This document shows positions 1-36,325 of a stretch of DNA of 59,446 bases, piece after piece. Source of the DNA: Peptococcaceae bacterium BRH_c4b (lineage in GTDB: Bacteria; Bacillota; Desulfotomaculia; Desulfotomaculales; Desulfocucumaceae). The notes under the pieces were generated by a model. It was given only the letters and a program-made list of their open reading frames with translations, was not told where the DNA came from and ran no database searches. The stretch's first letter is position 1. The number at the start of each line of letters is the position of its first letter. The translations under genes were made by a program, and so were the position numbers. The stretch spans positions 1-59,446 of the forward strand of contig LADO01000006.1 in NCBI GenBank assembly GCA_000961595.1, given 5' to 3'.

Positions 1-326
<326 letters not shown>

Positions 327-20649: not shown

Positions 20650-20732
20650 GTACCAACAGGAGGTTAGCAACTGCTACAAAATAGATAAATATAACTAAAC
20701 ATTTATCAACAAACATTATACGAACAAACCAT

Positions 20733-20761
20733 TGACGCGAACACATGTTTTGTTAGAATAA
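20733..20761 (+). promoter_or_regulatory. candidate promoter of the tnpB-like gene
   Basis: TTGACG, a 16-base spacer and TAGAAT lie about 70 bases before the coding start. A 24-codon reading frame beginning at the ATG at 20780 with its own GGAG overlaps the tnpB start and could be a leader peptide. Positions are approximate by one or two bases. Confidence 0.45.
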
Positions 20762-20828
20762 TGGTAAGGAGTGGTGTCAATGGTTAAATCAACAAAATTA
20801 TTGGGTAGGCTATACAGGTTTTGGGGAG

Positions 20829-22295
20829 ATGTCCGAAGTGAAGACCACAGTTAGAGGCGTCATCCTCCAGCCCGCAGAAGAACATAAAGCCTTCCTGGAT
20901 GAATTGATGGGACGCTATTGCGCCGCTGTGCGCTGGTCATACAAGAGGCTCCTGGATGTGTGGAAAGTTCAGGACATAAGGTTGGCCGTCCAGGGAAAAT
21001 TCACCCTCAATTCCCGCCAGGCCAACGACGCAGTATACGACGCCCAGGCAATAATAAAATCGCAAAAAGAACTGGTCAAACTTAATCATGGCAATGCCGT
21101 AAAGAAAGTAGAACACACCAAAAGCCGGTATAAAAAAGCCCGCTCAAAAAAGAAAAAAGCAAACCTGACCAGAAAGCTGGACAAAGAACAACGCCGGCTG
21201 GCAGCATGGCAAAAGCACATAGAAAACGGCACTACCCCACCGGTGGTATTTGGCGGTAAAAAGCTCTTTTTAGAACGGTGCAAAGGCAACATCAGCCGTG
21301 CAGAGTGGCAGGGAGCCCGAAGCGATCGCTACCTCTCCAGGGGCGATAAAACTAAAGGCGGCAACCTCAACACCAGACTGTATACAATTGACGGCAATAT
21401 ATATTTGGACATAGCCGCCGAACCGGTAGAGACAGGTAAAGTAACCAGGTATAACCGGATCACCGTTCCCGTCTACCTTGCCCACAAGACATCACCAAAG
21501 ACCGGTCGGATTAACGGGCGCAACTACCGGCAGATGGTGTTAAATTATCTTAAACAAGGTAGTGCCTATCAAATAGAAATAATCCGGGAAAACGGGCGCT
21601 ATTACATCCATGTAACCATTGAAGAAGAAACACCCCAAAACTACACTGCCCGTAACGGCGCAGTAGGCATAGACACCAATCCCCACGGACTGGGCATAAC
21701 CCGTGCAGACTATATGGGTCAGTACAAAGAGAGCCTGTGGCTGTCACAAGGAGAGTGGACCTGCGCCCGAAGCTGCCGGCGGGACAACCTGATAGGCGAA
21801 GCCGCCGCTGTGGTGGTAGATATGGCCAAGCAGTTAAACTGCTCCCTGGCCGTAGAAGACATTAACTTCAAAGACGACAAATCAGCAACAGCAAAATTCA
21901 ACAGGATGAGCCACAGCTTTGTCTGGTCAAACTTTTTAGAAAAAGTAGAACGCAGGGCCGCCAGGGCCGGAGTGCCGCTGGTTAAAGTAAAACCACCATA
22001 TACATCCACCATCGGCACATTAAAATACCAGCAGCAATACGGCATATCAAACCACCAGGCAGCCGGTTACGTCATTGCCAGGCGTGCTCTTGGGTACAAC
22101 ATGGAAAAAGTTCCAAAACCATTATTTGAAAGATTGATCAAAGAAAAAGAAAACTATTCAAAACTCTCCAACTGGAAACAATGGAGCGCGATAAAGAAAG
22201 CAATAGAAGCCGCAATTCAAAAACCAACGAAAAGAGAGATGAAGAGCCTGGTTAACTGGCAGCATTGCAGAAAACAACTGTTAGGCACGGTGTAA
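20829..22295 (+). CDS. TnpB-like RuvC protein, IS605 OrfB group, no partner transposase
   Basis: TnpB proteins are RNA-guided nucleases encoded by IS200/IS605 elements. This 488-aa protein has a basic helical N-terminal half (KKARSKKKKANLTRKLDKEQ near 103-121) and a split RuvC domain: D282 in GAVGIDTNPHG and E343 in LAVEDINF. The third site, GISNHQAAGYVIARR at 405-419, has N408 where the usual D[RVH].NAA motif has aspartate. No CxxC zinc ribbon lies between the second and third motifs, unlike typical TnpB. No TnpA transposase is nearby, so it cannot move by itself. Activity is uncertain; it could be a divergent or nuclease-dead relative. Confidence 0.85.
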   Translation: MSEVKTTVRGVILQPAEEHKAFLDELMGRYCAAVRWSYKRLLDVWKVQDIRLAVQGKFTLNSRQANDAVYDAQAIIKSQKELVKLNHGNAVKKVEHTKSRYKKARSKKKKANLTRKLDKEQRRLAAWQKHIENGTTPPVVFGGKKLFLERCKGNISRAEWQGARSDRYLSRGDKTKGGNLNTRLYTIDGNIYLDIAAEPVETGKVTRYNRITVPVYLAHKTSPKTGRINGRNYRQMVLNYLKQGSAYQIEIIRENGRYYIHVTIEEETPQNYTARNGAVGIDTNPHGLGITRADYMGQYKESLWLSQGEWTCARSCRRDNLIGEAAAVVVDMAKQLNCSLAVEDINFKDDKSATAKFNRMSHSFVWSNFLEKVERRAARAGVPLVKVKPPYTSTIGTLKYQQQYGISNHQAAGYVIARRALGYNMEKVPKPLFERLIKEKENYSKLSNWKQWSAIKKAIEAAIQKPTKREMKSLVNWQHCRKQLLGTV

Positions 22296-22500
22296 ACCTT
22301 ACCATAAAGTTTTGCGGGCGGCACAGTACACGCAGAGAAAGGCTGTTGTCGCAAGTAACGACCAGGCGGTGGGTAACACCCCCTTCCGGGCAGTACGTAT
22401 AATACGGCGGAAGCCTTCCACCCGGAGCATGGACGAAAGTCTATGGCTTAGCAGTTGAATCCTGTGAAGCTGCCTCTTGTTTAGTCGACAGGAGAGGAAA
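22296..22500 (+). ncRNA. candidate omega RNA (reRNA) region downstream of tnpB
   Basis: The 200 bases after the stop codon are rich in hairpins: GTCG/CGAC near 22350, GGGTAACACCC near 22372, and CCTCTTGT/ACAGGAGAGG at the 3' edge near 22474-22497. GAATCCTGTGAAGC before the last hairpin resembles right ends of IS605-type elements, where the omega RNA ends and the guide begins in flanking DNA. If so, the guide would start near 22500. The rest of 22501-22636 is AT-rich flank with a weak cvpA promoter (ATGACA/TATAAT). Confidence 0.55.
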
Positions 22501-22636
22501 CTAAATAAATATTGACATATCTAGATATATCAGATTTGTTTAGTTTTCAGAAACCAGGATGAAATAACCAGAATTAATTTTCAGGACAGTAGGATGACAA
22601 ATCAACATAAAATAGATATAATTCGGGGGTGTTGTC

Positions 22637-36173: not shown

Positions 36174-36249
36174 GGGCCATTAGCTCAGTTGGTAGAGCAC
36201 CTGACTTTTAATCAGGGTGTCCCGCGTTCGAGTCGCGGATGGCTCACCA
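36174..36249 (+). tRNA. tRNA-Lys (anticodon TTT)
   Basis: Cloverleaf of 76 bases with encoded CCA. Acceptor GGGCCAT/ATGGCTC (one G-U), anticodon stem CCTGA/TCAGG with loop CTTTTAA, T-loop GTTCGAG. Its last base touches the first base of the next tRNA. Confidence 0.96.
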
Positions 36250-36325
36250 GGCCCCTTGGTCAAGCGGTCTAAGACACCGCCCTTTCACGGCGGTAACACG
36301 GGTTCGAATCCCGTAGGGGTCACCA
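36250..36325 (+). tRNA. tRNA-Glu (anticodon TTC)
   Basis: 76 bases with encoded CCA. Acceptor GGCCCCT/AGGGGTC, anticodon stem CCGCC/GGCGG with loop CTTTCAC, T-loop GTTCGAA. Zero spacer to tRNA-Lys. Confidence 0.96.

Follow-up and report, generated by a model that had tools for sequence, protein, structure and literature searches.

What defines TnpB and Cas12 nucleases is a D-E-D RuvC site, to which TnpB adds a zinc ribbon. The published TnpB/Fanzor signature demands both a C4 finger and an RD motif (PMC3627910), and in ISDra2 TnpB the triad D191-E278-D361 is accompanied by a CCCC zinc finger situated between strand 5 and helix 4 (PMC10097598). For the TnpBs of IS607 elements, the TAMs that have been measured are AGGAG or GAGGG (PMC11061315). 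A different third residue is known from the RuvC resolvases of Thermus and Deinococcus, where it is naturally a histidine; the Thermus enzyme is active, and the substitution H143D raises its activity (PMC3834835). A search of the literature for a D-E-H site in TnpB found no description, most subscription journals being outside the search.

Here we describe a tnpB-like gene located within a window of 59,446 nucleotides (the whole stretch of DNA that was analysed), the features of which are presented in Table 1. A first-pass annotation of this DNA had reported the presence of D282 and E343, the string SNHQAA containing N408 and H409, and the lack of a zinc ribbon, and all of these observations were borne out: the ORF is intact, both acidic residues are in it, and there is no CxxC at residues 380–430. 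It is quite likely, in our judgment, that the locus is a tnpA-deleted IS607-family element whose zinc-ribbon-less TnpB probably cuts with the RNA of its own 3′ flank by way of D282, E343, and H409.

Table 1. Features of the tnpB-like locus and of its surroundings in the window.
Feature	Coordinates	Strand	Basis or remark
16S rRNA gene, 5′ part, at window edge	1–325	-	
AGGAGG adjoining left end (target/TAM side)	20658–20663	+	Its final GG presumably serves IS607 as crossover dinucleotide
IS607-type left end and leader, starting TTAGCAACTGCTACAAAATAGA	20664–20828	+	Comparison with L081
tnpA (serine recombinase) remnant, 24 codons	20780–20854	+	Alignment with L081, L082, L086
tnpB-like gene, 488 aa	20829–22295	+	Predicted RuvC residues D282, E343, H409; no zinc ribbon
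Putative omega-RNA/reRNA scaffold and IS607 right end, ending TTTTCAGAAACCAGG	22296–22558	+	Copy boundaries, covariation, fold z-score
Predicted flank-encoded guide ATGAAATAACCAGAATTAAT	22559–22578	+	Right-end boundary
tRNA-Lys/tRNA-Glu pair	36174–36325	+	

The protein was matched at its N-terminus by the NCBIfam domain TIGR01765 and by TIGR01766 with 34.2 bits (above the cut-off of 32), while the NCBIfam model guided_TnpB scored 59.8 bits, below its cut-off of 100. The Pfam zinc-ribbon model PF07282 gave a weak match to residues 366–394, that is, without the ribbon. In a family of 61 sequences, TIGR01765 and TIGR01766 (“tspaseT_teng_N” and “TnpB-related”) match 57 and 58 members, respectively. 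The gene is the single copy of its kind in the 3.6-Mb genome. PF07282 has ten matches elsewhere in the same genome (contigs C1, C4, C6, C14, C20, C41, C47, C54, and C62), several of them in short ORFs that are probably truncated.

Homologs were used to settle the identity of the third catalytic residue. Family matches were found in 24 of 60 related genomes and in 44 of 299 genomes of the phylum, with named loci including those of Pelotomaculum, Desulforamulus, Desulfotruncus, Clostridium, Halanaerobacter, and Thermus. Among 112 homologous ORFs the triad at positions 282, 343, and 409 reads D-E-H in 85, D-E-D in 12, D-G-H in nine, and K-E-P in one, the remainder being truncated or misaligned at the triad; to the question of whether D is always absent from homologs, the answer is that it is not, although H is the rule. 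In the curated alignment of 61 sequences, position 409 is H in 52 and D in nine, and position 408 is variously V, N, I, K, T, S, or A. N408, which had been proposed as the third catalytic position, is not the catalytic column because position 408 varies freely while 409 is only H or D in this alignment; the proposal was off by one residue. Residues D282, N284, E343, S393, G396, K399, R418, and E426 are invariant in this alignment, and a CxxC within 380–430 is found in none of its 61 members. The D-E-D sequences group in a single supported clade and have their D exactly at 409, as K-D, comparable to R-D in ordinary TnpB; the tree of the D and H forms has long branches and supports no direction of change between the two residues.

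A profile–profile alignment with 15 zinc-ribbon TnpBs placed SNHQAAGYVI on DRDVNAARNI, with H409 on the D and N408 on the R of “RDxNAA,” and together with the homolog alignment it ruled out N408 as the third residue. The site therefore departs from the canonical D-E-D triad at H409, and the C4 zinc ribbon that canonical TnpBs have before RuvC-III is lacking. The second alternative of the first-pass annotation, a subgroup using H409, is supported by the homologs, the D/H exchange, the profile alignment, and the structural register. Judged by these alignments, the third catalytic D has not been lost in this copy; a conserved, predicted catalytic histidine stands in its place.

Some homologs deviate from this pattern. 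In archaeal loci (L123, L125, L126, and L128–L133) the D-x-N motif and the histidine are kept and the usual RuvC-II glutamate is a G, and an invariant E in RSEAxT, seven residues before the lost first Cys, occupies the relocated-glutamate position of Fanzors and pro-Fanzors. From sequence, it looks likely that these archaeal cousins have a D-Ealt-H site. The homolog L017 (L172:7671–9380; G010:C67) encodes 569 aa and has K for D282 and P for H409. Its branch in the tree is long, an XRE regulator gene is in its vicinity, and it has no tnpA. It is a candidate for a truly dead TnpB, possibly repurposed.

An AlphaFold2 model of the 488-aa protein, built with the 61-sequence alignment, has a pLDDT of 88.2 and supersedes an earlier, poor model from six sequences (pLDDT 69). 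In this model D282 is within strand 278–284, E343 ends strand 339–343, and H409 is at the start of helix 408–420, the last RuvC helix, while a short helix (392–404) occupies the place of the TnpB zinc finger. Using VIA-align, the best structural match was Cas12f (Z 18.6), followed by ISDra2 TnpB (Z 16.0 over 287 residues), so that the model has the WED/REC/RuvC fold of canonical TnpB; its RuvC part matched stand-alone RuvC with Z about 13. A sequence search of solved structures gave a weak Cas12f match with a six-member alignment, and Cas12f/TnpB with the 61-member alignment and folds. The end of the aligned range with ISDra2 (model 425 = chain 377) puts H409 on D361, and the range ends with Thermus thermophilus RuvC (423 = 157, 276 = 1) put H409 on H143 and D282 on residue 7, both registers being derived from range ends and not from coordinates.

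The element itself belongs to IS607. It had been noted that no tnpA is nearby, which is correct as to an intact gene, but a remnant survives in which the start region is retained and the catalytic part deleted, and which overlaps the start of tnpB. A search of the whole genome for IS607 TnpA gave nothing above the cut-off. In relatives, TnpA is the MerR-HTH serine recombinase by which IS607 is recognized, encoded upstream of tnpB and either complete (in full in L002, L083, and L003) or internally deleted; of this the window has the remnant only. Where enough upstream DNA was available, tnpA was found in 53 of 76 D-E-H loci (33 near full length, 20 partial), and it is also present in the D-E-D sister clade. 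The reduction of tnpA in the window resembles that in the nearest relative, L081 (Pelotomaculum propionicicum), with which the left end and leader are 80% identical over 231 aligned columns. A promoter scan found a promoter-like TTGACG-16-TAGAAT at 20732–20759, as a consensus match only. The region following the gene had been described as structured and IS605-end-like; structured it is, but its ends are those of IS607, IS605 ends being ruled out by the TnpA type of the relatives. As regards the Y1 (HuH) TnpA typical of IS200/IS605, the tnpA recognized in the relatives was the serine recombinase, no separate Y1 model having been used.

The ends were read where similarity stops among multi-copy relatives, namely G030 with at least ten near-identical copies, G047 with three, and G146 with four; several regex calls of G030 left ends inside tnpA were excluded, and the left ends of G030 were taken from the comparison of copies. 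As expected of IS607, GG is found at both junctions of the copies (GGAGG on the left, CCAGG on the right) without target duplication, and wherever a relative’s copy could be read, its left end follows GGAGG. In the window the right end closes at AAACCAGG, position 22558, its last GG being 22557–22558, and the left end lies directly against AGGAGG, a sequence of the kind that known IS607 TnpBs, such as that of ISFba1, have as TAM. A start codon with an ORF lies 4–13 nt past the right end in 24 of 34 relatives’ flanks, vs. 16.5% at other offsets, and therefore elements of this family insert into Shine-Dalgarno sequences, which agrees with the AGGAG/GAGGG TAMs of other IS607 TnpBs. In L004, L026, L058–L070, and others, the insertion separates a GGAGG Shine-Dalgarno sequence from the start codon of a gene. 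The next gene in the window starts 78 nt downstream. In G001, G002, and G004–G007 the two flanking genes are adjacent without the insert; an empty site at base level was sought there and could not be joined, the intergenic DNA being too diverged. The same genome also has a miniature derivative, L072 (G000:C15:22317–22439, minus strand), made up of the left-end motif GGTTAGCAAC, the 3′ half of the guide RNA, and the right end, with a guide of its own downstream. The lone TnpB might serve it in trans.

The 263 nt from the stop codon to the right end could be aligned among 17 elements, with protein identities to the TnpB of the window as low as 42–46%. RNAalifold gave 51 pairs, 37 of them with two-sided compensatory changes, and 92.9% of cells pair in the covariation test; none of 500 shuffles reached any of the five covariation measures and slid structures collapsed. 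The RNA sequence of the window alone folds with z = -4.15. By these measures the 3′ flank has a conserved RNA structure, far beyond chance. In Rfam, nothing at the locus scored above gathering and there was no credible match, RAGATH-18 included, the sub-threshold matches being attributed to chance. An RNA ending near 22500 had been proposed, about 58 bases short of the end that the copy boundaries in relatives give. Since the RNA structure of the right end runs to 22558, the guide is predicted to begin at 22559 with ATGAAATAACCAG, and by comparison the locus has the structured right-end omega-RNA and flank-encoded guide of a canonical TnpB, both as predictions. Targets had been suggested to match the bases after 22500; with the start moved to 22559, a search of the genome itself with a pattern of GG plus the first 16 bases of the guide gave no site other than the self site with fewer than three mismatches.

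The tnpB of the window compared with that of L081, where tnpA is also reduced, gave a dN/dS of 0.22, with 0.10–0.36 in other pairs and 0.33 among the near-identical G030 copies. Measured in this way across lineages, tnpB is under purifying selection, and the enzyme is maintained while tnpA is lost repeatedly. Given the single copy, retention in the window could be recent or neutral.

The analysis shows the gene, its ends, the RNA structure, the conservation of D, E, and H/D, the IS607 ancestry, and the purifying selection. Our explanation also draws on the profile alignment, the structural model and its register, the natural histidine of Thermus and Deinococcus RuvC, the multi-copy relatives, and the TAM-like AGGAGG; counted against a nuclease are the third residue that is not D, the missing zinc ribbon, and the guided_TnpB score. 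The best reading is that an immobilized IS607 element keeps an RNA-guided nuclease that is under selection, has a D-E-H site, and is probably active, if perhaps slow. The promoter-like site in the left end would give rise to an mRNA that carries the guide RNA as its 3′ portion, and the protein would bind the RNA from 22296–22558 together with about 16–20 nt of flanking guide. So loaded, it would check DNA for AGGAG(G) and then for the guide sequence, and the RuvC site of D282, E343, and H409 would cut matching DNA. The empty insertion site would be such a target, and its cutting would favor copies that retain the element. We infer this RNA production and guided cutting, as well as the binding of metal by H409, which would act as H143 does in Thermus RuvC. 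H409 may make the enzyme slower than D would, and a His third ligand could result in a very weak enzyme or a nickase.

It is improbable, though worth more weight than the other two rivals, that the D-to-H change ended catalysis and left a TldR-like RNA-guided binder that represses or occupies its target. The gene is intact without tnpA, and a precedent exists in Cas12m2, which has a non-canonical His-Asp-Asp RuvC triad and binds without cutting (PMC10442227). However, Cas12m2 is changed at the first and second residues, both invariant here, and is not a close parallel. Moreover, TldRs have lost their RuvC residues, whereas in this family D and E are invariant and the third site is only H or D, with H occurring family-wide in mobile multi-copy elements and not as a lesion of this copy. 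Nor does the guide match a host promoter elsewhere, the genome itself holding no second target within two mismatches, and in the dead-looking relative L017 both D282 and H409 are gone, which is what a catalytic H would lead one to expect. Repurposing for binding, the first alternative offered by the first-pass annotation, is thus disfavored by the invariant D282 and E343, by H as the family rule, and by the purifying selection.

Slightly less probable again is that the IS607 remnant is a passenger in decay and that its TnpB and RNA serve no present function in this genome. The single copy, the mere remnant of tnpA, the lack of an IS607 TnpA in the genome, and the reduction of another element there to its ends would all fit, but the ORF, the conserved RNA helices, and the ends are all intact, and dN/dS against the nearest relative points the other way, even if that selection may partly predate immobilization. 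As for the reading that this is an otherwise ordinary D-E-D TnpB, defective because its third D was lost in this copy alone, its one attraction is that residue 408 is N and not D; with 408 outside the catalytic column and H at 409 in the 85 D-E-H homologs, this reading is refuted by the alignments and retains a negligible probability. The preferred reading remains the nuclease with a D-E-H site.

More tentatively, and at somewhat less than an even chance, the family may represent a large branch of RNA-guided nucleases that evolved a His-tuned D-E-H site without a zinc ribbon, to which the archaeal cousins would add a relocated Fanzor-like glutamate; the tuning would consist of slower cutting, nicking, or another metal preference. 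If the family works, an RNA-guided RuvC tolerates a His third ligand, as the Thermus and Deinococcus resolvases do, and H409D and H409A would give natural access to the speed of cutting and the choice of strand. Motif filters demanding the third D or the C4 ribbon, the published TnpB/Fanzor signature among them, miss this branch or label it dead.

The family should be regarded as a TnpB-like IS607 branch and not as canonical TnpB, because it fails both the C4 finger and the RD of the published signature. By annotation it is already known, as the TnpB-related proteins of TIGR01765/TIGR01766, for which no description of a catalytic site, RNA, or activity was found in the literature searched. With ISFba1 TnpB (PDB 8IAZ; PMC11061315) it shares the IS607 origin, the upstream serine-recombinase tnpA, the WED/REC/RuvC fold, and, as predicted here, an reRNA wholly 3′ of the coding sequence and an AGGAG-type TAM. 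However, ISFba1 TnpB has 387 aa and the triad D194-E290-D371 and is guided by a RAGATH-18-derived RNA, whereas members of this family mostly have 480–580 aa, a D-E-H site, and no zinc ribbon, and their predicted RNA has no credible match to RAGATH-18. ISDra2 TnpB, of IS200/IS605, has the same fold and a guide encoded by the flank of the right end, but differs in its Y1 TnpA, its D191-E278-D361 triad, and its CCCC zinc finger (PMC10097598). Cas12f is closest in fold, but is CRISPR-associated and has zinc fingers and a D-E-D site. The RuvC resolvase of Thermus and Deinococcus is a stand-alone Holliday junction resolvase and not RNA-guided, but has a natural D-E-H site that falls in the same register in the structural match.
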